The notes: generated by a model not told the origin, from the letters alone. DNA of 64,000 nucleotides from Candidatus Altimarinota bacterium (GCA_014377305.1 JACMPW010000005.1:1-64000), one strand, 5' to 3'. Positions 48,566 through 64,000 are shown, counted from the stretch's first letter. Translations and numbers: made by a program.

Positions 48566-49111
48566 ATGACTCCATTTTTATCTGTATCCACTGACTCTGA
48601 TAGGACGGAGTTTTTGATAGATACTCAACTTTTCTCTCCAGTGATTGCGATGAAGGCAGCATATGTCCTCCTTGATAGGGCATATTTCTTCTTTTTCACT
48701 CGTCCGGATTGACTCATGGTACAGGTGAGTCCCAAGGTATGACAAGATTGGAGTGCTGAGAGATTTACTCTTGAGTATAGTGATGAGCTCCTTGCTTATG
48801 CCCTGAGAGCTCGGGTAGAGCTAGAGAACAAAGAAGTTCGAGAGACTATCGTCAGACGAGCTTTGGGTTCGTATGCTGATCTTCCTAATTTTACATCTGT
48901 TGATCCTATTGCAAGTAGTCCACAGATCGACTTCGATAAAGATATTGATGAGATACTCAGAGAAATCGAAAATGATCCTGAACTCAAGATCGATGAAGCA
49001 GAAATCAATCGTATTCTCGCTGAGATTGATTCAGAGACTCAGGCACTCAAAAAACCAAAACTCGATCCTAATAAACTCAAAGATGTCAAAAAAAACTTTC
49101 AACATAAGTAA
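48566..49111 (+). CDS. hxsD: His-Xaa-Ser system protein HxsD
   Basis: 181 aa. The N-terminal 95 residues match HxsD in pattern: FLIDTQLFSPVIAMKAAYVL, then DRAYFFFF, VQVSPK and the FTLEYSDELLAYALRARVE region. HxsD is a conserved small partner of the radical SAM enzymes in His-Xaa-Ser peptide systems and may bind the precursor leader. The extra C-terminal 85 residues (Glu/Asp/Lys-rich, helical) look lineage-specific. It is first in the locus, and its end overlaps the next gene by 29 bases. Confidence 0.78.
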
Positions 49112-49283
49112 TATATTGTATCCAGAAACAATGATCCATGATGCTATACATGAGTTCCACTGATATGTTATTATTTATGCTGATGGATTGATTACTATTG
49201 ATGATGAGTATCCACAAGTAGTATTTGATGAACTGATGAATTATATCCTTTCTATTTTTTCAGAAAATACTGTATGAGCCTAG
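49083..49283 (+). CDS. Small protein between hxsD and hxsB (66 aa)
   Basis: 66 aa. It overlaps hxsD by 29 bases and hxsB by 10, with two internal TGA glycines, so it is invisible under standard stops. The composition (ISNILYPETMIHDAIHEFHG, YVIIYADGLITIDDEY) suggests an alpha/beta fold, reminiscent of short accessory proteins that assist radical SAM maturases. No family recognised. Double overlap argues for tight translational coupling and a real gene. Confidence 0.62.
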
Positions 49284-50728
49284 ATATTGATGTCATAGAG
49301 TCCATGAATATGGACCGAGTAGCTCCATTTTACTTCTCTCGAAAAAAAGATGAGCAGTATTTGATTACGAATGATTTTGGATATTATTCATATCTTTCTC
49401 CTTGAGAGTTTGATGATTTTTGTTCGAGCAAACTTACTTGAGACAAATTCATAGAACTTGATGAAAAACTCTTCATAAAAAATGATACCTATACAGATCG
49501 AGCGATCACTGCATATAACAAAAAAAATAGCTTTCTCGCATATGGACCTACGCTCCACATGATTATTACAACTCTTCGCTGTAATCATAAATGTCAGTAC
49601 TGCCATGCTGCTGTAGCTCCTATGACTGCGAAGAATCTAGATATGACACGAGAAACAGCAGAGAAGGTAGTAGATACGATATTCTATACATCAGCCCCAT
49701 CACTCACGATCGAGTTCCAGTGATGAGAGTCGCTCGTCAACTATGACATAGTTCAGTTCATTGTTGAGTATGCTAGCATGAAAGCTCAAGCTCTCCAGAA
49801 AAATCTCACATTTGCATTGGTATCCAACCTTTCACTCATGGATGAGGATAAACTCAAGTGGCTTCTCGATCATGGCGTTGATATATGTACGTCTCTCGAT
49901 GGTGATAAAAAGACTCATAATTGGCAGCGTACCTATAAGGAGGGGGATAGCCATGAGAAAGTAGTTCATTGGATCAATCGTATCACGGCTGAACAAGAAC
50001 TCAGGTGAAAAAAAGGATATAAAATCGGTGCCCTTGCTACCTGGACGAAACCAGGTCTTGCAAATTATCGTAATATTGTGGATTCGTACATAGAACTCTG
50101 ACTCACTACTATAGGACTCAGATGGCTCAATCCCTATGGATTTGCTGCTGCAGAGCGAGATACTCTCGAGTATACACTCGATGAATATTTTGAGTTCTAC
50201 AAGAACTCCATGGATTATATTCTTGAAAAAAATAAAGAATGAATTTTTCTCAAGGAGATGATGTCTATGGTCTATCTCGGTAAAATTCTCAATAATACGG
50301 ATAGTGGATTTATGGATGTGAGATCACCATCTGGTATTGCTATCGGAGGAGTTGCCTACAACTATGATGGTGGAGTGTATGCTAGTGATGAGTCGCGTAT
50401 GCTCGGTCGTATGGGGATTCATGATTTTCTCATGACACCACTCCTCGCAACAGGCGAAGAGACCTATAGAGCCATGGCCAATAGTGAGGTTACCAAGATA
50501 TCAGTCCAATCATCTACACTTGACGGACTCCCATGATATGTAGACCATGTATACAAGCCATATCTTGGAGTTGACTTGATCTATGCATTCACACAGCATG
50601 GTAATGTTTTTTCCAACTTTGCAAAGGATGATAAAACTCGTATTCAGATAAGTATGCTCGATTATTTATTTGATAAACTCAGAGATCCTGAGAATGAGAA
50701 AATTTTTAGATCTTGGATCAGGAGATAA
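49274..50728 (+). CDS. hxsB: His-Xaa-Ser system radical SAM maturase HxsB
   Basis: 484 aa. The [4Fe-4S] motif CNHKCQYC gives Cys103, Cys107 and Cys110, preceded by LHMIITTLR as in HxsB. TIEFQGGESL is the GGE SAM-binding motif, with both Gly as tandem TGA at 49723-49728. YNYDGGVYASDESRML near residue 358 is characteristic of HxsB C-termini. It should modify the HXS precursor by radical chemistry. TGA also occurs at 50008 and elsewhere. Confidence 0.85.
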
Positions 50729-50730
50729 AG

Positions 50731-50757
50731 TTGCAATAAGGAAGAAAAAGATATAAT
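50731..50757 (+). promoter_or_regulatory. Internal promoter for the precursor gene
   Basis: TTGCAA (50731-50736), 15-base spacer, consensus TATAAT (50752-50757), 23 bases before the precursor ATG. Precursor peptides are often transcribed at higher level than their enzymes. Confidence 0.6.
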
Positions 50758-50780
50758 CATAACATCTCTCTATACTATAT

Positions 50781-51206
50781 ATGTCTGAACAACAGAAAAA
50801 AATCATCCCAAAATTCAAGAAAAAACTCCAGTGATTCCTCTCAGATGAGAGTGGTAAAATCACCAAGGAAGATGTCCTCAAAATGGGTATGATGGCTATG
50901 GGTATTGCTATGATGGTAGGACAAGTCGATGCTGCTGCTACCCATGCTAGCAATGGTATTGCGGATGGTATAGGCGGGAGTACACATCAGAACTATAGTA
51001 TCGACTATAATTCTGATGCAGTGAGTTGTCCACCAGTGAGTCAGATTGTAAATGGTCATGTCAATGTAGTTCCATCGAGTTGTACTATTAACTGAGGTGG
51101 CATGACCAATGTCGCTGGCCACGGATCACACGGGAGCCACGGATCACACGGGAGCCACGGATCACACGGGAGCCACGGATCACACGGGAGCCACGCTTCT
51201 TACTAA
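50781..51206 (+). CDS. hxsA: His-Xaa-Ser repeat precursor protein (HxsA-like)
   Basis: 141 aa. A basic amphipathic N-terminus (KKIIPKFKKKLQ) and the leader-like segment FLSDESGKITKEDVLKMG are followed by a Met/Ala-rich hydrophobic stretch (GMMAMGIAMMVG) ending in AAATH. A middle domain with two Cys (AVSCPP, PSSCTI) leads to a C-terminal tail of eight HGS triplets and a final HASY. Two TGA glycines (residue 18 and the one before GGMTN) hide it under standard stops. This is the probable substrate of the surrounding radical SAM enzymes, with His or Ser side chains as candidate modification sites. Cleavage and export route unknown. Confidence 0.88.
51120..51200 (+). repeat. HXS-coding tandem repeat (4 x 18 bp)
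   Basis: Four exact 18-base units CACGGATCACACGGGAGC encode eight HGS triplets (51120-51191), followed by HAS (51192-51200). The alternation of GGA-TCA and GGG-AGC codons within each unit shows the duplication unit is two triplets. Confidence 0.97.
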
Positions 51207-51211
51207 TATTT

Positions 51212-51844
51212 ATGAAATCAACTCTTCACTACATCACTATCGGTATTGTTATCCTGACTCTTTCGAGTTGTTCCTGGTGAGCAAAAGAAAGTGTTGCTAT
51301 CCCTACTGGCACTGGTAGTAATAATACTCAATCGTTATCTAAGCTTACGTGATCTGTACTTCCTCCAGAAGCTCAGTTTAAGGATATTGTTACCGCATTA
51401 GAAGGGACTAAAAACTATAATGAATTCTCCAAAGCATATTCTCTTTCTTCGTCAAAAATAGATGAATGGATATCTCAATGAAGTGGATCATATATATTCG
51501 ATCATAACATAGTAGATAAACTTGTGCCATATATATACATATGTAGGCTCACGCTCTCAGGGGAGGATTCTGTAGTTCGATCATCATTTACGAGATATAG
51601 TACTATTATTCCTCCTATCACAGATAGGGATCCGACAAATAATGTGAATATTATTGAGCAATTTATGAGTTCAAAAATCTCTCTCTCAAAACTCTATGAT
51701 ATATTACTATCTCCTCAGGTCATATTACCACAATATTATATAGATCTCCTCTCCAAGAGGAGACTCGCCTATTGAAAAATATCGGCAGATGATTGCAGTG
51801 AACTCATATTCAAGTATGAAGATACATTTTTTAGTGAAAAATAA
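51212..51844 (+). CDS. Lipoprotein of the HXS locus (210 aa)
   Basis: 210 aa. Lipoprotein signal peptide (YITIGIVILTLSSC) with lipobox LSSC giving Cys20. The mature domain is polar and helical (AQFKDIVTALEGTKNYNEF, IIEQFMSSKISLSKLYDILL). Five bases separate it from the precursor stop. A surface lipoprotein here could receive, display or export the modified peptide, but no family is recognised. Confidence 0.78.
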
Positions 51845-51847
51845 GAA

Positions 51848-53311
51848 ATGAGAAATCACATCAAGTATAGAACGATATTTGCGAATAAGAAAGATCAATG
51901 AGTCGTACGACATATGCCCGATCAGTTGATCATAAGAGTATGAAAGTGATGCAATTTTCGTTGTATTTTTTGTAATGTTGCCGAAAATGAGACAGTACTG
52001 AGCCTCAAATCATCTCTCCAAGAGATACTGGCGATGACTTTTTATAAAATAAAACATACTAAATTTCTTTCTGACCAAATTAATGTAACTATTTCTGGTG
52101 GTGAACCTAGTATTTTCAAAAAAGAGACTCTATTCATACTCAAATACTTCAAGATTTTCTTTGAGAAACGAGGTATTCATACAAGCTTTGATATGCAATC
52201 AAATGCCTCGAGTATTGATAGGGAATTCGCAGATGCAATATATCGTCTCTGAGTATGACAGGTACTCGTCTCATCTCATGCACATGATCCAGAGATATTT
52301 GAGTCTATAATTGGTGTCAAATATGTAACTATGTGACCACGTTTTGAATCAGGCGTTCAACACCTTCTTGATGCTGGTATCGAGGTTACTTTTAATATTG
52401 TACTCAATCGTCTCAACCATTCGCATTATCTAGAACATATTGTCTATCTTCATCATAAATATCCTCAAGTAGCACTCTACAATATATGATTCGTTCAGCC
52501 TCATGGTATGGCACAAGAGAATTTCAAAAAATTATTCTCTCAATATAGTGATGTTGCTCCTGTATATAATCGTGTTATTTCGTATCTCAAGTATCACTGA
52601 AAATACGTACACTCTCACCTCGTAGGATTGCCCCTGTGCTATATGGATGACTGGTCGAGTAGTATGGAATATTCGTATAATCAGGCCCTACTCAAAGCAG
52701 ATCCGAATGATCACACTCTTATCCAATCTATCAATGATAGTAATAAGATACATCCATCATCTTGTGATGGATGTCGAGCAAAGCGAGTCTGTAGCGGTAC
52801 ATGGAAAGAATATAGCAAGTTACAAAAACTCAAGCCATACATATATCCAACCTATAATTCTTCTACTGTTTTTGCTGATGACATTGAGTCTATCGAAAAA
52901 GACTATGATTCTGGTGATCGAGTTTTTTTCTTGGAGTGACGAGTATATACGCAAGGAACCCTGACTGACAAGATTGCATCTATCAAAAATCTTGGATACT
53001 CTTGGATAAGTATTGTTTTAGATAAGTGGAGTGATGGATGTGATCCCTCGTACTTTGCAGGAACTAATATACAGTATATAGCTATTGCTTCGATAGCGAC
53101 TCTATCTACGATAGATGACGTAGCAAAGTATAATAAGCAAGTACCATTTCAGTTTCGTATTCAGTTGGATATACTGATCAAAAATCCAGAAAATTGGACA
53201 ATAAAAGATATCCTTGATATGCCAAAGAGTTCGGATATCCTTGTTCGACTCCCAAAAACCTGGAGATCAGAAAAACAACTTCACAAACCATATATTTATT
53301 TTTCTCTCTAG
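51848..53311 (+). CDS. Radical SAM peptide-maturase-like enzyme with SPASM-type cysteines (487 aa)
   Basis: 487 aa, 3 bases after the lipoprotein. Cluster motif Cys35, Cys39, Cys42 (CNFRCIFC) and GGEPS in the SAM-binding strand (VTISGGEPSIF). A SPASM/twitch-like cysteine set CDGCRAKRVCSG lies near residue 310. A further C-terminal domain of about 150 residues (from SIEKDYDSGDRV) is unlike standard maturases. TGA glycines include the one in the CNFRC-preceding GKGC. Its closest canonical role would be the second HXS radical SAM enzyme (HxsC), but I cannot make that assignment by eye. Confidence 0.85.
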
Positions 53312-53315
53312 TCCT

Positions 53316-54017
53316 ATGGTACAAGTCGCTATACTATGATTTTGAAGACAATGAAAAAAACATGCTCATTTTTGGCGACATATTTGAGTAGAGCCAACTA
53401 TTTTTACACGAACAGCATGAGAAAATAGTTCTTCTATAGAAGAATTTTCCCCGGAAAAATATACTATAGTGGTATGTGCAATATTTCCTCTTGATGAACA
53501 AACAAAAGTGCTCTCAAAGATTCTGATATCCGGATATCTCTGATACCTGATCATAGAGAAACCAATAACCTTTTCGAAGAAACTCCTTGAAACACTCGTG
53601 GGTAGAGAGAGAACCATCTTTTTCATAGATGAAGCATATATGGATATACATATGCGTATTGGGAAAATCTATGAAATAGAAACAGTATCATATGTACCTG
53701 ATGATGCACTCTCTATTCAGGAACATGCTATATGATATACTCTCAGGTCACCTGTATGAGTTCTCTCATATAGAGATATCATTAATTCTCATATTTTATC
53801 AATAGATCAGCGTTATCTACTGGCAACAGATGTTGGCACTATTGAGTCTGTGAATGGGGCTGTATACCTCGATGGACGTCTATTCTCATTTTCTTTTGAT
53901 GCTGTATATACGTATATGTTATACCACATAGCCGACGATGAGATGATGGGCAAGATACGGTCTAACTATTTGAATTTTCGTTTACAATCACCATATTGAG
54001 CCCTCTCCTATGAGTAA
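53316..54017 (+). CDS. Gfo/Idh/MocA-like NAD(P)-binding protein (short)
   Basis: 233 aa. The N-terminal Rossmann motif VAILGFGRQGKKHAHFW (first three glycines mostly TGA) and YLIIEKPITFS, the EKP motif of Gfo/Idh/MocA oxidoreductases, are clear. The C-terminal half is much shorter than the usual alpha/beta domain, and the total is about 100 residues below the family norm. It may be a redox enzyme acting on the peptide or a cofactor, or a degenerate scaffold. It overlaps the next gene by 8 bases. Confidence 0.7.
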
Positions 54018-54717
54018 TAATTCCTTACATAATAGAAAAATTTTTCAAAATAATACTGATATTTCCCGATACTGTATCGGCGTTTTTGGAGAAAAATTTG
54101 AAATACGTTATTGTAATTTTGGTTTTGTAGTCATACCAATATCAGGTCTATTTGTATACAAATATTATCTCTGATCAAAAGATGATCCTTTATTATTCTG
54201 AAATAGAGAGGCAAAAAATTATCTATTCTTTCACCAAAATTGAGTATTGATACCAATATACGAAGTTCTATGAGATATATGTATCTGAAACCAAGTATTC
54301 ATGCGAGCAAAAATCCAAAATATTCGAATGACAAGTAAAAAATTTGTATCTTTTTGTGATTTTGACATCCAACAACTTGCAATGATTATTACTCAGATAC
54401 ATACTATCTATCCTGGCTATATCCATGGTAATATTCATCCATCCAATTTTTTCCTCAATACAAGTGGAAAAATCGGAGTTTTTGATCTTATTACCTATGC
54501 GATATGACCTCGTGAGAGAGATATATCACGTATATTTATGCATGCTAGATATGATGTAGATTTTCTGAAACATTTCCTAGTATTTTACAAGTTTGATATT
54601 TCACTAAAAAAAGTATACTTGATCGCACTTATAGAACTCCGAGAATTGATGAAAATGTGATATGCAACAGATTTTGAAATAGAGATAAAAAAATTGATTA
54701 CACTGATTCAGTCATAG
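54010..54717 (+). CDS. Kinase-fold protein (APH/choline-kinase-like), catalytic Asp replaced
   Basis: 235 aa. The catalytic-loop region reads HGNIHPSN (His139 to Asn146), where aminoglycoside/choline kinases have HGDxHxxN, so the catalytic Asp is Asn141. The metal-binding region GVFDLITYAIGPRERDISRI keeps Asp159 and the family GPREXD pattern. A short N-lobe lacks an obvious P-loop. It is either an inactive pseudokinase with a binding role or an unusual phosphotransferase. It overlaps its neighbour upstream by 8 bases and is 3 bases from the next gene. Confidence 0.7.
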
Positions 54718-54720
54718 TAT

Positions 54721-55455
54721 ATGCAAATAGACCTCTATCTCGGATTTACATCTTGTCGATGACACTGTCTGTTTTGTAAACAGGGAGAGGATCTTATCTA
54801 TTTCCCTCGACCGACGTATATGTCAGATCCAACACAGTATCAATTTTTCTATTTTGATACATCAGATGATCTCTATAGTTGGATTGCTACAACGACATAT
54901 GAGAATATAGATACCATCAACATCTCAGGAAATGATCCGATAAGCTGGATTGAATTATCTCTATTTTTGGATATACTCACAGAGAAATATCCGTCAGTAT
55001 ATCGAACACTCCGTATATCGAATACACGAGAACTCGATCAGAAGATATGTACACGGATAGATGCAATAGAACTCTCTCTCTATTGACAGACTCCTGAGGT
55101 GCAGCTGGCGATGACAGGAACGGACGAATCTTGGGACATATTCCACTCCAATCTCGCAGAGATCCGAGCATCTCATAGAGTAGACGTACAATTGCAAACT
55201 ATATTTCTCTATACAAATATAGCATATGCCTCGAGTATTCTGGAGTATATGCTCTCCCTCTCAGGGGGACAACCTATCAAAATAGTATATCCTCATTTTA
55301 TGCCACGCAATATGGTGCATGAGCTCATTCCAAAGAGGGAATTCCTCCAGTTGCTCATACGACAGGTTCCCAAAAATATACTACAAAAATGTATCATGAA
55401 TAATATCAAACCGCAGATATCTCTCACCTCACTGTTTTATGATACACAAGAATAA
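54721..55455 (+). CDS. Minimal radical SAM protein (244 aa)
   Basis: 244 aa. Cluster motif Cys12, Cys16, Cys19 (CRGHCLFC; the Gly is TGA) begins almost at the N-terminus, followed by a partial TIM barrel with INISGNDPISWIEL in place of GGE. No additional Cys cluster is visible, so it lacks a SPASM domain. In multi-enzyme RiPP loci such small radical SAM proteins sometimes act on specific residues or as partners. The next gene overlaps by 17 bases. Confidence 0.82.
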
Positions 55456-56146
55456 TTTTATTTTCGACATGAGAGATGCTTTTTGAATTTGATATAGTTT
55501 TTCAAAGAATTGCTATGTAGAGTACACTCTTTCTTATGAAGATAAAAATATATTCACATATTTCAAAACCTACCTATCATCACAAAATATACTCTCTCCT
55601 ATACGTGAAGTATATACTGGTTCCGATGATATCTATGGTATGCATTCGATACTCGACTTTTTCTTATCTTCATATCCTATATTGACTGACTCAACCATAG
55701 ATCTACTGCGTACGAACATAGATTCATGAAAAATTTTGGAAATCCATTATTCGACTGATCCTATCGATAGTGATATCACACTCTATATATACTCAAAAGA
55801 TATTGTATTTCTTAAGCTTCTCAATTCTGACTATGATAGTGATAATTTCTTCGAGGCTTGATATAAGGATATTCATATGTTTTGTTCAAAATTGAAAATA
55901 AACTCAATTACGAGAGCTATCAATACTTCGATTATACTTACATCACATAATTTCGAAAATAAAGATGCATATTTGCAGCTAAAACAATCTCCATTTTTTC
56001 CCAAAGAATTTGATTCAAACTCTATTATTCAGGATGGAAAATTCATTACATATGAAATATCATATTCTATGAATGCACAAATAGTAGAAAACTTTACATT
56101 ATTTTATTTTCCTCGAGCAAAAAATGCAAAATCCTCTCCTCTCTAA
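55439..56146 (+). CDS. Protein of unknown function in HXS locus (235 aa)
   Basis: 235 aa, overlapping its neighbours by 17 and 23 bases. The sequence is Asp/Ser/Tyr/Phe-rich with hydrophobic helices (MHSILDFFLSSYPIL) and no recognisable motif, signal or cysteine cluster. TGA glycines include FGIGYSF. Position and overlaps tie it to the maturation cluster; a peptide-binding or partner role is only inferred. Confidence 0.62.
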
Positions 56147-57446
56147 AGAGATAACAACTCGTGAAAATCGTATTTGGGTACGTATCATCGCTGCATGTAA
56201 TGTGAAGTGTATTTTTTGTCTGGATGCTGATGCACAGAATGGTACACTCATCGATGATACCAAAATCCGAGATCAAATCCGAGATGGATACAAACCTGGT
56301 ATGACCAATCGTATAATCATATCTGGAGGTGAGGCGAGTATCCATCCAAAATTTGCCGATTATGTCAGATATGCCAAATCAGTATGATATGATCGAGTAC
56401 AGACAGTAACCAACGGGAATATGTTTGCCCGCCGAGAATTTTGTAATAAGCTTTTTGATGCATGACTTGATGAGGTCACCTTTTCTATCCATGGACATAC
56501 AGCAAAGCTCCATGACTATCTCACAGCGGCACCTGGATCGTATGAACGAGCTATACGATGACTGATCAATGTTCGCAAATTTTTCCCTACCAAAATCGTC
56601 AATATCGATATTGTTGTCAACAAGATGAATGTGGAGTATCTTCCGCAGATGGTGAAGTTTTTTATGCGACTTGGAGTATATGAGTTTGATATTCTTCAGA
56701 TTATTCCATTTGGTAGGGGATTTAGCCAATACAAAGATCAGCTTTTTTATCGTATCGAAGACTATCTCTGACCACTTCATGATACATGGAAGCTCTCTAA
56801 AATTCCAGGTGTATATATGTGGACGAATAGATTCCAAGTAGAAGCATTCGAGTGATATGAAGACCTCATACAGGATCCTCGTAAGATCAAATCAGAAGTT
56901 ATGTGAGAAGCTCTAGAGGAATTCTCTACATTCATCGAATCACATGGTATCACAAAACCTCATTGTTATTGAGAGGCCTGTGACGTATGTTTTCTCAAAC
57001 AATATTGTCATGACTATATCGATCATCAGAGTCATCATCTCCCTGCATGAGATATTCAGATATATAGTGGGAAAGATGACCCTATCACATTCAGATATCT
57101 TATCCTCAGATGAGAAGAGTTCCCGAGTCAAGTATATGAAAAATATGGAAATACAGGAGAGGAATTCGTATCTCGAATACAAGATATCCATCTCAATTCC
57201 AACCAAGAGATAGTCAATATTCCTCGTTGTATACGAGAGAAAAATAATTCTGGACTCTATGAATGGGATAACGATATGAGTCAAGAAAAAAATGTAGCAC
57301 AATATACAAAAAACTATATACTATGACTCTACCGTAAAAAATCCACTCGTTGCAAATCTTGTAAATACAATGATAGCTGTGAGTGATTACATATCAATTT
57401 TATCAGATCATACTGATTTAATCTTCTCAAACCCTTTCTCAAATAA
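56124..57446 (+). CDS. Radical SAM/SPASM-type enzyme (440 aa)
   Basis: 440 aa. Cys25, Cys29, Cys32 (CNVKCIFC), IIISGGEASIHP and TFSIHG define the radical SAM barrel. Two further cysteine clusters follow: CYGEACDVCFLKQYC near residue 278 and RCKSCKYNDSCEG near 408, consistent with auxiliary Fe-S clusters. It starts 23 bases before the previous stop. It probably introduces a modification into the HXS peptide or a partner; specificity unknown. Confidence 0.87.
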
Positions 57447-57448
57447 AC

Positions 57449-58432
57449 ATGGCTAATATCGGTTACATCCAAGTCAATCGTCACTGTAATAACGCCTGTC
57501 ACTTTTGCTCGAATCCATCCAACGGTCAAAATATCTCTTATGAGAAAGGAGTAGAGATTATCGATGATTTCATAGTACGCAAGTATAGATGAGTCATATT
57601 CACTGGTGGTGAACCAACACTCTCTCCTGATCTCTCAAGATGGATAGCATATGCACGAGAGGCAGGTATAGAATCCCGTATCATATCCAATGGTATGATG
57701 TGTGCGAGTCTCCCCTATATGAAAAAACTTGCTGATGCTTGACTCGAGCTCGTACACTTCTCGGTATATTCGTATAATCCGAAGATTCATGATTTCCTCA
57801 CAGATACACCGGGATCATGGAAACGACTCATGCTCTCTATCGGTCATGCTCATAGTCTCTGAGTACGTGTACAAATCAATACAGCAATCAACCACTATAA
57901 TCAATCTCATCTTGATGTAACAGTGCAGTTTCTCACGAAACAATTCCCCAAGTTACAACATTTTGTCTGGAACAATCTCGATCCTCTCATGATGAGAAAG
58001 ACAGATACAGCCCTTTCGACTATTCCAGATTTTGCAGCTTTTGAGCTCCCACTCCGGCGAGCCATGCAATATCTTGAGTCCACTAATCGTACATTTCGTG
58101 TAGAGAGAGTTCCACTTTGTTATATGCGATGATTTGAGCATTTTTCTACGGAAACTCGCAAAATCGTAAAAGATGAAGAGAGAATTGTACACTTTCTCGA
58201 CGAACGTGAGATCGTCGAACAAAAATCTGAATGGTTCGTACATGATAAATGAGAGGCTTGCAAATCCTGTGATCTCAACCCTATCTGTGCTGGTATTTGG
58301 CTTGCAAAACCTGCAACGATTTTTGGCACAGATCATCCTGGTTATTATGACTTTGTAGAGTTCCGTACACAGAAACTCACACTCGATGAACGTCAAAAAA
58401 TAATAGATACTATTAAAAAAGAAACAGACTAG
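57449..58432 (+). CDS. Radical SAM/SPASM-type enzyme (327 aa)
   Basis: 327 aa, 2 bases after the previous stop. Cys13, Cys17, Cys20 (CNNACHFC), VIFTGGEPTLSP, VHFSVYSYNPKIHD and the C-terminal cluster CKSCDLNPICAG match PqqE/AnSME-like peptide-modifying radical SAM enzymes with a short SPASM domain. The Gly before VIFT is TGA. Similar in layout to the 440-aa enzyme upstream, suggesting duplication within the locus. Confidence 0.88.
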
Positions 58433-58435
58433 CAT

Positions 58436-59335
58436 ATGCCAAATATTATTATCAATAATACCTGTAATCAACGATGTTCTTATTGTTTTGCTGAGGATAG
58501 TATGACCTACGAGGCTCTTCCGGTGAAGAATCAAAAATATTCTACTTTTATTAGTATTCTTCATTTTCTCAGACAAAATGGATATGAAGATGTACGATTT
58601 CTTGGGGGTGAACCACTCTTGCATCCAGAACTTCAGAAGTTTATTCTTTTATCCCGTAAGGGTGGATTTCAGACTCGTATGTTTTCTAATTTGAATTTTC
58701 CAGAAATATATGTATCTGAAAAATTCAAAAATCCTCTTTCTCTGCCACACACGATCAATGCCAATATCAATAATCGTGACTTTTACTCTGATATAGAGTA
58801 TGAACGTGTGATCAATAATATTCTTTTCTTTAAACAATGAGGTACGATCATGACTATCGGATATAATATATATGATCTTTCCAAATCATTTGATGATATC
58901 ATCCAAGTTGCTCGCACTACCTGAATCAAACATATAAATCTCAAGGTCACCAATACCATACTCGGAGACCCACTGATTGTAGATACAGGATCTCGACTCT
59001 ATGGAGAATATATATTTGATATTATTCGCTCATATGGTGATGAGTTTGAATTTGTTTTTTCGTGCTGACTTTCACGTGATATATTCGTGTCTACTGAGAT
59101 CGAATACATGAATAGCATCGGTATATATCCGAGATATGGGTGTGACGGATTCAGTGGCAAATTCGATATTGATATCGATGGGAGTATCTACAAGTGTTTT
59201 CCGACTCGATCACTGTATCTGAAAAAACGTCTTTCCATTTACTCATTTACAGATGAGCAGCAACTTTTTTCGATAGTTTGAATCGAGAAGTCTTCAGGGA
59301 TATGTCGAGCACATACACTGAGCAAGACAACTTAG
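58436..59335 (+). CDS. Radical SAM enzyme (299 aa)
   Basis: 299 aa, 3 bases after the previous stop. Cys10, Cys14, Cys17 (CNQRCSYC) followed by VRFLGGEPLLHPEL. The C-terminal third has YGCDGFSGKFDIDIDGSIYKC, the typical SPASM DxxGxIYxC turn, with a later Cys in GICRAH. Likely another peptide maturase. Canonical glycines near the end use TGA. Confidence 0.87.
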
Positions 59336-59355
59336 TCAATATCTAAATATACTCT

Positions 59356-60414
59356 ATGTGAAAATATCTCTCTACTCTCGGATATAATCCTAATATACTC
59401 CTGGAAAAATATCGAAAATTGTTTGTATCCAAGACTCGAAAAATCTGGAATATGCATATATGATGAGATATTCCTTGTGATGAATTCTTGCTCCATCCAG
59501 ATATCCATAGTCGACTCCTTGCGAGCATGAGGTGAGAACTATGAGTTGGTATACAATACTATAGAGAATTAGAAAAAGAGTACCACCAATTTCGAGAAGA
59601 ATGATTTTTTTATGATGCAAGTGAAAAAATAACAGGAACAAATATAGCTCTCACTCTCGATTTCAAGAATCCTGATATCAATAAACATGCCCACCCAGAG
59701 CATCAAAAACAGTGAATTAGTATATGATTCTGAGAACAAACCCCACAAGACTGGAGAAATCTTTTCAAAAAATCTTTTGATATACTACACTCGGTCTCAC
59801 CATGATGTATGAGTGAAATTGACTCAATGATAAAAAAAATTATACCATTTTGAGTGAGTGTATGAGTACATAATTCCGGCTCATATTCTGAGGCTATATG
59901 ACATCTACTGATGAGTTATCCTACGGGTATGTCTCATCCCGAACTCGCTCTTTTAGAAGCTATTCTCCATGAGTACAATCATAATAAGATCAATCTGATT
60001 ATGCAGACAGAAGTACTCATACTCAATGATAGTCGTGAAATCTACTATTCTCCATATCGTCCAGATGCTCGACATATTCATGGTATCTATCTCTGACTCC
60101 ATGCTATTGCATGAGTCTATTGGGTTATTTGGAACGCTCATAGTACTGGTATATACTCTCTCTCTCCTCAGTGGCAAGAGAAGGCTGTCCTCTACGTACT
60201 CAAAAATTGACTCTCTCTCCAAATCCTCGATCGATATGCAAAACTCACCCCACTTGGACAAGAAATACTAGAAGAAATGAGGGCTGTCCATAGGGAGTGT
60301 CTTCTCTACATCAAGCAATCACATATCTCCTACGATATCATAGAACATGCTCAGCAAAAACTCAAATCTCATCATCAGGACGTAGTCGAGAGCCAGCCCA
60401 AACTTGTTTCCTAA
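59356..60414 (+). CDS. HExxH-motif peptide modification protein (alpha-ketoglutarate HExxH beta-hydroxylase-like)
   Basis: 352 aa. HEYNH at residues 205-209 within LLEAILHEYNHNKINLIMQT, followed by YYSPYRPDARHIHGIYLGLH, matches the HExxH family of RiPP-associated proteins, in which the His/Glu/His motif binds iron for alpha-ketoglutarate-dependent beta-hydroxylation of peptide residues. The N-terminal 180 residues are family-specific and poorly conserved. At least 15 glycines are TGA, including the second codon. It closes the HXS locus and could hydroxylate the precursor. Confidence 0.78.
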
Positions 60415-61352
60415 AATGTCGTACGAATCCAATTTATTATATTTATATCGAGGTTGTAGGTAGTTATAAAAGCTATAAATATAACGATAGAATAGGGAAT
60501 AGTTTTGAAATATTCTCATCATCATATTGTAGTCATATGATCGTATATCCCATATATAGTAGTGCTAATATAACGAATGACTATGTATAATAGGATATAT
60601 ATCCATAGAGATGATATATATCTGAGGAGTTCACTATACAAATTAGATATTCCATTATCCTGAATATATGATCCAAAATATATAATGATCCAAAATATCG
60701 GTATGATATTATACTGCCATCTCGTGATCAAATAGTTGCTCCATGGACGAATCATGTATACTACAAGAAATATAAGAAAATACATATTTGCGTTCATATC
60801 TATACTATAGCTGAGCATGACTCATATGTGAGGTATAAGTTGTGAAAATATAAATCCTACTATACCAAAGTCCAGAATATATGCGAGTATATAGAGATAT
60901 ATCTCATTTTTTGGAATTTTTGGTGATAGCTGATTCATAACTACACCAATGCTGAGAGATCAACGAGACCTATATATACATCCAAGAATGATGACGATCC
61001 AAAAAAATAGGCATATCAGTGTCAATACTGCTATATTACCCACAAAGTCTGATATAGGGTGACTTCCCATAAATAATATGAGTATGGCTGTATATTTGAT
61101 ATCTCCTGATCATAGGAATGGACTACTTTGATATAGAAATATTCCTCATATAAGTAAGATGATGGAAACGAATATATTCGATATACTCATAGATATATAG
61201 CTAGGAGCAGATATCCATATCCAGAATGGTAAAATCCCAAAAAGTACCATCAAAGAGAGGTTGAGTATTTTTCTATGATAAATATCAGTTACGAGTATCC
61301 ATAGATTTACTCCTATAAATATGGATATTATAACAAGTTGCAAAGAGTCCAC
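60411..61352 (-). CDS. Prepilin-type aspartic peptidase (A24 family) with extended C-terminus
   Basis: 313 aa, eight or more membrane helices. The catalytic aspartates are in VTDIYHRKI (first Asp) and GSGDIKYTAIL (GxGD, second Asp), the A24 signature. It lacks the N-terminal Cys-rich methylase domain of PilD, so it resembles TadV/CpaA or FlaK-like peptidases. The C-terminal 150 residues add hydrophobic helices. It converges with the HExxH gene and overlaps its stop by a few bases. It could process type IV pilin-like precursors elsewhere in the genome. Confidence 0.82.
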
Positions 61353-61453: not shown

Positions 61454-64000
61454 ATGAAAACAAAAATAAAAATTGGACTCTTGTTTCTCATATCCATCGT
61501 ATCTCTGCTGGAATTTGCTCAGCTCGATGCCGCTTGGTATGGTGATCATGGATATCATAATTCTTGGGCAGGAGGATGGTGTGATCAAGACGCTCAGGTA
61601 GATGCTACTTGACCATCTGCAGAGGTCTGGGGGCCAGCGTATGGAGATAGTCCATGGCCGTATGCTCTCTATTATATACAGGGTCGTATCATAGGTGACT
61701 ATGGTGGAGGATGGATGAACTGTCAATACTGGGATGCGACGGCCCCTACCTTGTCCTCTATTACATATGTGCCTCCCGCTACCAGTGGATGGACCAACAA
61801 CCCAAACTTTCCAGTGACACTCGTAGGGAGTGATTATGGGGGATCGGGCATACAGAGATACTATCTCTATTATAGATACCAAGATAACCCAGGATCAACT
61901 ACTCCGTGAGCATGGAGTAGTTGGATATGGTGTGGGAATGTGGCGAGCTCATTTGCATTTACCTGTGATGGGAGTAGGGGTACTGCCAATAGAGCATATC
62001 AGCTCTCTGCCGGTATGGAGGATGGTGCCTGAAACTATATTGCTGCAAATCTAGATGGATGAATTATCTATGTGGATACTACCATACCAGATCCAAATAT
62101 ATTTACCAATACAACGGCGACGAGTCTCCTGGCGACAACATCGCAAGCATTCACATTTACCTACAATGATGGAGGGGCACCAGTATCGATTCGATCTGTA
62201 TTTGAGAATTTTGCGAATCCTGCTACTACAGTATCTGTATTTGCACCATCAGCATTTGCCTATTCACATACATCATCTCAGAATATCAATACTGTAGATG
62301 GATCAGATCGTATCGTAGATGGAGGAACGGCAAGAGCGTATACCTATACTGTGACCCAGATTTGTGATCAGGCAGGGAATTGTTGGAATGGAACAAAAAA
62401 CTATACCTACAACATATACGCAAATCCGAACTATGCCCCTCAAAATACTCAAGATATCTCATCACTTTCGAGTGCAGTATCTGATGGAGTACCACGGAAT
62501 TTTGTACATACGATAAAAGATGGATACGGTAATGCAATCATCCCAGCTGCAGGCATCTCCCGATTAGTCACTATAGATCTCTCTGCTATCTCGAATCAGA
62601 TGTATATCAATCAACATACGAGATCTGCAACTGATGGTACGTCTGTATTTATCACTGTACCGAACAATACCCCTGATCAAGCATTGAGCTTCACTCCTAC
62701 ACAGGTGTTTGCAAACCCTACTACATCGACAACTGGAGCATATCCAGTGAGTATCCGAGTATATACACCAACTGCGAATAGCTATAGTCCTACTGACCCA
62801 CTTTCTGATCCATCTGCTGTATTCGGATTTGGAACCAATCTGATCGTATCTGATACACTCATCGGCCCAGCAAAAACATTTTCTCAAGTACTTTCGGGTC
62901 CAGTATTTAGACCACTCTATACGTCTGCTATCACTGGAGATCTCAGGACTGGTTGATTCATCGAGGGAACTGAGCAAATGAGCATCATCACTATCACTCA
63001 GGCAGCATCATCACTCACAACACCACCTTCTTTTGCTCTCGATCTCGAGTTCTCAGGATCCAATATACCCAATTTTGATCTTGCATGAGGTACCATAGCC
63101 TATGCACCTATTACCAATATTCTCTCTCCACTCATCGGTATCAGTACGCCGAGTAGTGTCACATTTCTCTCACAACTTCGCCAAAAACCTGATACGACTA
63201 TCGCTACACTCTCCAATCTCCAACTCTCGACTCATATCACCTATACTCTCGATGGCAAAAATATCCTCTACAATAGTGATATCATCGGTAAAACACGAGG
63301 ATATTGGGGTACAGCTCAGTCTCTCGCAAATCAGGTAGGTATCAAGATCATAGGCCCGATAGCGTCCAACACTATACGAGCCATCGTCGATGGACAATTC
63401 GCAGATGGGACGAGTATATTCGGATGACTCTCTCGAGTAGACATCCGTAACAAGATGAAACAATCGACCGCTCTCGCTACGCGTAATATGATAGTCGCCC
63501 CAGTATCATCTATTGTCGATAGTCTCACCATCCCAAATAGCTCATCACCACTTGATGCAAAATGAGCCAAAATCGATCTCTCACCAGTGAGCTCTATCTA
63601 CAAGGTAGAGAGGACTGGAGGCAATGTGACCCTCGCACTCACATCTGGTATCTCGGGCAAACGCACTCTCGTAGTGAGATGAGCCAATCTCTATATAACC
63701 CGTGATATGTACTATATGACTGCTGATGATATACTCTGAGTAGTAGTACAAAAAGATGAAGCCGGAAATGGGGGAAATCTCTATATCGATCCGAGTATCA
63801 CCAATATAGTGGGAACGTATATCCTCGATGGGAGTGTACTCAGCTATGATGGTACTACAGAGATCGGAGTAGGGAATATAACAACTCTCAAAAATCAGCT
63901 CTATATCTATGGATCTATCGTGAGTGAAAATACTATAGGTGGATCTCGTATGAATCCACTGAGATGTCCATCCCTCTTGGATGTAGCTTGTACCGATGTT
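61454..64000 (+). CDS. Large exported surface protein (N-terminal part, truncated by window)
   Basis: 849 codons, open to the window end. Signal peptide MKTKIKIGLLFLISIVSLLE with cleavage near LDAAW. The early region has Trp/Gly/Tyr-rich sequence (WYGDHGYHNSWAGGW), followed by Ig-like modules (APTLSSITYVPPATSG, SQAFTFTYNDGGAPVSI) and then a long beta-rich C-terminal module with KRTLVVRGANLYITRDM, NGGNLYIDPSI and LYIYGSIVSENTIGGSR ending in a Cys pair. That module is shared with the protein at 35412-37706. TGA glycines occur throughout. Start at 61454 chosen for the signal peptide. Confidence 0.85.

Follow-up and report, generated by a model that had tools for sequence, protein, structure and literature searches.

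An expanded His-Xaa-Ser peptide locus in a Candidatus Altimarinota bacterium that reads TGA as glycine

Comparison of the locus with described HXS systems

Sequence analysis led to the prediction of His-Xaa-Ser (HXS) systems years ago; to our knowledge, the chemistry of no HXS product has been published. The canonical form, HxsABCD (TIGR03976-TIGR03979), has two radical SAM (rSAM; SAM, S-adenosylmethionine) enzymes in each of the loci of Aeromonas and Stenotrophomonas. NCBIfam also holds models for HxsA3 (NF038309), HxsA4 (NF038313), HxsC4 (NF038332) and an HxsD-like protein (NF038315); we found no publication treating these four as one system. Here we analyzed an HXS locus at positions 48566-60414 of a 64,000-nucleotide stretch (the window) of Candidatus Altimarinota bacterium (GCA_014377305.1 JACMPW010000005.1:1-64000). 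The window was translated with table 25 (TGA=Gly), and protein families were called against NCBIfam and Pfam model cut-offs. An initial annotation had described 14 nearly contiguous genes on one strand. All of these were found, on the plus strand, with intergenic gaps of -29 to +52 bp (Table 1). The starts of g7, g8 and g10 are more likely 53316, 54010 and 55439, and 5' trimming abolishes the larger overlaps. The 14 genes appear to form a single operon with overlapping genes. As judged from the sequences of its HxsB, HxsD and HxS-repeat precursor, the locus is an HXS system, but strictly speaking not HxsABCD. We consider it likely that the genes, as one operon, direct the maturation of a secreted HGS-repeat ribosomal peptide, with HxsD and HxsB acting first and lineage-specific enzymes later.

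The locus opens with hxsD, g2, hxsB and hxsA. The identity of HxsB (g3) is secure, its score being well over the model cut-off. HxsD (g1) reaches 45.9 of the 50 bits set for TIGR03976, covers 88 of 90 model positions and lies at the expected place; its orthologs are found immediately upstream of hxsB in relatives and in other phyla. Thus, neither protein fell into an unrelated family, the outcome against which the initial annotation had proposed a check. The 66-aa gene, g2, which had been noted without assignment, is present and, by profile comparison, is an HxsD paralog. Its match to the HxsD-like model is weak (E=5e-4, 20 of 41 bits), but profile-profile comparison pairs it with HxsD itself at a probability of 96.7% (E=4e-10). 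It is 48% identical to its nearest counterpart, in a locus titled Candidatus Gracilibacteria (L141), and scores only 13 bits against PqqD. AlphaFold models of HxsD and g2 are confident, with fold types beta-alpha-beta-beta-alpha; the predicted folds had no PDB match at E<=0.001. A classical recognition element (RRE) of ribosomally synthesized and post-translationally modified peptides (RiPPs) was considered for HxsD or g2 and finds no clear support, the PDB matches being weak and lying with alpha-beta arrangements of the RPB11, Pcc1 and gyrase-like kinds (Z<8). The precursor gene, g4, starts 52 bp past hxsB. Its product remains below the HxsA3 and HxsA4 cut-offs (53 of 65 and 46 of 55 bits, respectively), carries the leader FL-x-DESG-K-I-T-K and ends in nine consecutive HxS units. 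Eight of these are encoded by a perfect 18-bp repeat in four copies (CACGGATCACACGGGAGC), so that the number of repeats can vary by slippage.

The cluster motif CX3CX2C occurs in six genes (g3, g6, g9, g11, g12 and g13), confirming hxsB plus five further rSAM genes. Five of them exceed the Pfam Radical_SAM cut-off, with g9 below it, and the six together make up at least 6 of the ~10 rSAM genes in the whole genome. The rSAM proteins inside one locus are mostly <38% identical in pairwise comparison (one pair up to 56%), indicating that the array did not arise by simple tandem duplication. No protein of the locus reached the HxsC cut-off (TIGR03977, 268 bits), the best scores being 83 bits for g12 and 71 bits for g6, and g11 is nearest to HxsC4 (136 of 500 bits). 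Thus, in the absence of an HxsC equivalog, the locus is of the HxsA3/A4-HxsC4-like kind rather than HxsABCD plus extras. The products of g4, g11 and g2 fall under the cut-offs of all four of their nearest models. A canonical Aeromonas locus (L126) served as control, with HxsA (231 bits), HxsC (396 bits) and HxsD (78 bits) all above cut-offs and two rSAM genes, so that faulty models do not account for the difference in the window. Note that the enlargement claimed initially therefore stands in its six rSAM genes as compared to two in Aeromonas, but not as an HxsA-D set with additions. Further differences from HxsABCD are the second HxsD and additional genes for an HExxH hydroxylase, a MocA-like protein, a pseudokinase-like protein and a lipoprotein, whereas the HxsB equivalog, the HxsD homolog, the HxS-repeat precursor and the tight operon are shared.

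The HExxH gene, g14, carries HEYNH and scores above the TIGR04267 cut-off, like the alpha-ketoglutarate (aKG)-HExxH peptide beta-hydroxylases ChlH, PflC and PosC. It has rSAM neighbors as in the ChlH type, but its candidate precursor is an HxS-repeat peptide. Among rSAM RiPPs, the poly-cyclopropylglycine type also has a repetitive precursor matured by rSAM enzymes, but of other families; a survey covering this type placed HxsB and HxsC in clusters of their own (PMC9062424). The Gfo/Idh/MocA-like call for g7 is weak by Pfam but gains from its EKP motif and from homologs in the loci of three relatives (G382, G401 and G414; here and below, G numbers denote relatives and L numbers HXS loci); a MocA-like gene above cut-off is present in the G394 locus. 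The kinase fold of g8 was likewise recovered, with the catalytic Asp missing. Its HGN motif recurs as HGN or HGS in homologs of two relatives (three genomes in all). In the open-licence papers searched, we found neither a description of expanded HXS loci nor any report connecting HXS systems with Gracilibacteria or further Patescibacteria.

Each of the 14 genes contains 2-16 internal TGA codons, and the longest standard-code fragment amounts to 19-67% of gene length, in agreement with the initial statement that key genes are fragmented under the standard code. To assign the codon, alignment columns holding TGA in 20 hxsB genes of the Gracilibacteria type were compared with two standard-code HxsB proteins. 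Gly stood opposite TGA 379 times, the runner-up being Asn (45 times), and columns with GGN codons gave the same pattern. The window's hxsB has 8 internal TGA codons, mostly at conserved Gly columns. Thus, the reading of TGA as Gly is real in the window. A tRNA-Gly(UCA) was not found among 29 listed tRNAs, a list that is incomplete and also lacks His and Met tRNAs. The expectation that routine annotation would miss the system was overstated, given that NCBI has a table for code 25 and models for HxsA3, HxsA4, HxsC4 and HxsD-like proteins.

HXS loci in relatives and in other phyla

HxsB was over its cut-off in 20 of 40 relatives, with 2-30 internal TGA codons in each gene, whereas a phylum-wide sample of 380 genomes had it in 3. 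Gene order, proposed initially as a check, is conserved in many of these relatives. The start block hxsD, (hxsD'), hxsB, hxsA is constant in the gene-called loci, and the hxsD-hxsD' tandem precedes hxsB in Myxococcota, Clostridia, Woesearchaeota, Omnitrophota and Gracilibacteria. The relatives' HxsA proteins have a common leader (FLTDESGKISKKDALGL), usually a mid-core motif (HASGIVNGHYSG), and then an (HGS)n tail; their HxS runs comprise 3-10 units.

Behind the start block, usually directly after hxsA, begins an array that differs from species to species. The total number of rSAM genes per locus is 3 in G380, 6 in the window, 8 in G401, 11 in G416, 12 in G412, 14 in G394, G409 and G414, and ~17 on one strand in G387; a distant standard-code relative, G349, has 15. 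The relatives' loci span 23-37 kb, compared to 11.8 kb in the window. Their arrays also contain MocA-like, carbamoyltransferase, SDR (short-chain dehydrogenase/reductase), sugar-nucleotide, asparagine-synthase-like, PPDK-like and methylthiotransferase-like genes. Part of the G412 array lies on the opposite strand. A family of ~325 aa starting with MKFSIGYN (F8) is present in up to three copies per locus in G387:C82, G394:C15 and G414:C10. The F8 copy tested had no Pfam match, and homologs occur also in DPANN HXS loci (L133, L135 and L137).

Orthologs of g11 and g12, an HExxH gene and genes for a membrane protein resembling prepilin peptidases and for a large secreted protein stand at the end of many loci. 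The distal rSAM pair and the HExxH gene are kept in about a dozen relatives, with g12 orthologs of 58-66% identity paired with those of g11. Co-occurrence was counted in the 40 relatives, 21 of which have a full or partial HxsB. Uncorrected for relatedness, g11 orthologs were found in 12 relatives, all HxsB-positive, and g14 homologs in 13, of which 12 were HxsB-positive. Genes similar to g11 and HExxH genes also adjoin HxsB in other phyla, which is a stronger argument for linkage than these counts. As a side observation, an HExxH gene, an rSAM gene and a large secreted protein lie together in G406:C1:190933-200611 without an HxsB over cut-off, perhaps as a decayed or HxsB-free variant; in G413:C23 the large secreted protein occurs alone.

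A scan of GTDB genomes yielded 79 named HXS loci, six of them titled Candidatus Gracilibacteria and sharing the window's code. Counting rSAM genes in HxsB plus 10 kb downstream gave 2 in Gammaproteobacteria, 1-2 in Clostridia (usually with one more just upstream), 1-4 in Myxococcota and other Deltaproteobacteria, 1-6 in Elusimicrobia, 5-8 in Patescibacteria and 7-9 in Omnitrophota. With counts raised across several phyla, rSAM expansion is a widespread, lineage-biased state and not a peculiarity of the window. The expansion seen initially is thus real but not special to this organism: it recurs in Elusimicrobia, in Omnitrophota and elsewhere in Patescibacteria, many members of these groups carrying 4-9 rSAM genes within 10 kb, and a larger locus is found in many Gracilibacteria. 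One Elusimicrobia sequence (WOVA01000001.1) has two HxsB genes ~12 kb apart (L118 and L123), each with its own rSAM genes.

NifH-like (7e-84) and nitrogenase component-1-like genes are present in the HXS loci of four relatives, with none in the window. Similar sets occur in HXS loci of Myxococcota, Deltaproteobacteria and Elusimicrobia, among others (Table 1). An Elusimicrobia nitrogenase paralog reportedly lies amid rSAM genes, and the sets in HXS arrays are possibly the same kind of cluster.

The initial extent of 48566-60414 holds for the 14 genes; the system probably reaches past 60414, as the next two genes probably belong to the HXS locus. The membrane protein at 60411-61352 holds the same relative position in several relatives' loci. 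It has no Pfam match, though both prepilin-peptidase-like motifs are present, and its G410 copy scores 20.5 bits (E=7e-4) against Peptidase_A24 (PF01478, cut-off 26.5 bits). It is a second, divergent GSGD prepilin-peptidase-like protein, the genome's recognizable Peptidase_A24 being located at C13:28173-28652. The secreted protein at 61454-64249 has long matches in 16 of the 40 relatives, 14 of these HxsB-positive. Its last ~110 aa form a domain that recurs in nearly every Gracilibacteria relative searched, perhaps one with a common role at the surface or in export. Secreted or membrane-anchored genes also occupy the region of g5 in several relatives.

Table 1. Genes of the HXS locus, its distal neighbors and nitrogenase-like sets in other HXS loci
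Feature	Position	Strand	Evidence
g1 HxsD, 181 aa	48566..49111	+	HxsD domain aa 18-104 plus helical tail; TIGR03976 E=5e-12
g2 second HxsD paralog (HxsD-like), 66 aa	49083..49283	+	NF038315 E=5e-4; profile match to HxsD
g3 HxsB radical SAM maturase	49274..50728	+	TIGR03978 458 bits, cut-off 370
g4 HxsA3/A4-type precursor, (HGS)n tail	50781..51206	+	NF038309 E=2e-14; NF038313 E=6e-12
g5 predicted lipoprotein	51212..51844	+	LTLSSC lipobox in sequence
g6 radical SAM, Cys-rich C-terminal region	51848..53311	+	Radical_SAM 4e-12; HxsC top NCBIfam match, 71/268 bits
g7 Gfo/Idh/MocA-like oxidoreductase	53316..54017	+	EKP motif; GFO_IDH_MocA E=0.03
g8 kinase homolog of APH fold, catalytic Asp missing	54010..54717	+	APH E=2e-4; HGN in place of HGD
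g9 short radical SAM	54721..55455	+	CRGHCLFC motif, in-house hidden Markov model; Radical_SAM E=0.01
g10 protein without family match	55439..56146	+	no NCBIfam/Pfam family, no homolog in relatives
g11 HxsC4-like radical SAM, two C-terminal Cys clusters	56124..57446	+	NF038332 136/500 bits
g12 radical SAM	57449..58432	+	Radical_SAM 1e-22
g13 short radical SAM	58436..59335	+	Radical_SAM 3e-8
g14 aKG-HExxH-type peptide beta-hydroxylase	59356..60414	+	TIGR04267 62.4 bits, cut-off 40; HEYNH motif
Membrane protein, prepilin-peptidase-like motifs (TDIYHRKILN, GSGD); probable locus part	60411..61352	-	
Large secreted protein (full length 931 aa); probable locus part	61454..64000 (to 64249 on contig)	+	
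Nitrogenase-like NifH with one or two genes like component 1, in or beside expanded arrays of relatives	G394:C15:228619-232321 (L056); G416:C1:30104-33785 (L052); G409; G415		
Nitrogenase-like NifH with one or two genes like component 1, in or beside further expanded HXS arrays	L072; L073; L077; L086; L123		

A proposed maturation pathway and its alternatives

In the pathway that we propose, HxsD and g2 would present the HxsA precursor, consisting of leader and HGS-repeat core, to HxsB; this delivery role is suggested by their being fixed parts of the loci. HxsB would introduce the modification that comes first and is common, its probable target being the HxS repeats. The lineage-specific rSAM enzymes (g6, g9, g11, g12 and g13) and g14 may then add further, species-specific changes. 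By analogy with characterized family members, g14 most likely beta-hydroxylates residues such as His. His, Asp and Gln residues of RiPP precursors are known to be hydroxylated by enzymes of the aKG-HExxH type (PMC12636437), making His hydroxylation on the HGS tail a testable guess. The MocA-like g7 and the kinase-like g8 might add or present a non-peptide group. The product, presumably a heavily modified peptide as suggested initially, would leave the cell and stay attached to its surface. Candidate partners for export or display are g5, the GSGD membrane protein and the large secreted neighbor, a role to which their position and signal-like sequences point.

Several observations weigh against this pathway. 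HxsA and HxsD score slightly under curated cut-offs, and the locus is without any HxsC equivalog. The predicted HxsD fold does not clearly resemble any known leader-binding (RRE) fold. The likeness of the HxsA leader to Flp pilins (FL-x-DESG) is visual, with no Pfam match even at E=10, and serves as a lead only. The co-occurrence counts for g11, g14 and the secreted protein with HxsB are subject to the relatedness of the genomes. Moreover, the array genes differ strongly between relatives, and some may therefore serve another pathway.

A bolder version of the pathway is tentative. Here HxsD-HxsD'-HxsB-HxsA would be the fixed loading module of an assembly line built from modules. In Gracilibacteria and further candidate phyla, up to ~17 different rSAM enzymes, at times joined by a nitrogenase-like reductase, would construct a complex molecule, cofactor-like or of the surface, on the HGS-repeat ribosomal peptide, with the enzyme array exchanged between species. 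If true, this would be peptide-scaffolded biosynthesis of a class so far undescribed.

About equally conceivable, and short of an even chance, is that the HGS tail belongs to a metal-binding or structural surface protein that the enzymes mainly decorate, the product being a coat or adhesin and not a released bioactive peptide. The secretion-like leader, the lipoprotein and large secreted neighbors, and a repeat number made variable by the perfect 18-bp DNA repeat are consistent with such a protein, which leaves so many different enzymes unexplained.

We regard it as unlikely that two systems adjoin, a small HXS peptide set (hxsD, g2, hxsB and hxsA) and an independent small-molecule island with rSAM, nitrogenase-like and sugar-type enzymes that never touch HxsA. 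The complete turnover of the mid-array between relatives, its NifH/D/K-like, carbamoyltransferase, SDR, asparagine-synthase-like and methylthiotransferase-like genes, and the partly inverted G412 array would fit two systems. However, the window genes form one operon with overlaps, g11 and g14 are nearly always found with HxsB and also near it in other phyla, and the array usually begins directly behind hxsA.

An ordinary HxsABCD system with a few genes gained is very improbable: HxsB well over cut-off, HxsD and HxS repeats are present, but the HxsC scores, the A3/A4-type precursor and the number of rSAM enzymes argue against it. Finally, an anti-phage (viperin-like) island is rejected as hardly credible, since the rSAM proteins, several of which match PADLOC viperin models, are all far under the 180 bits set by NCBI for viperin (highest score 50.3 bits, g12 with NF038283) and match no better than many other rSAM families, whereas HxsB fits its own model at 458 bits.

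In terms of the preferred single-operon pathway, the fixed start block singles out four genes as a natural first set for expression, and the natural series of 3 to ~17 rSAM genes permits a stepwise test of each added modification. A genome of ~0.9 Mb spends an 11.8-kb operon, and its relatives 23-37 kb, on costly and unusual enzymes; the product therefore probably matters to these organisms. The recurrence of nitrogenase-like sets in the HXS loci of several phyla suggests novel reductive chemistry on or beside peptides.

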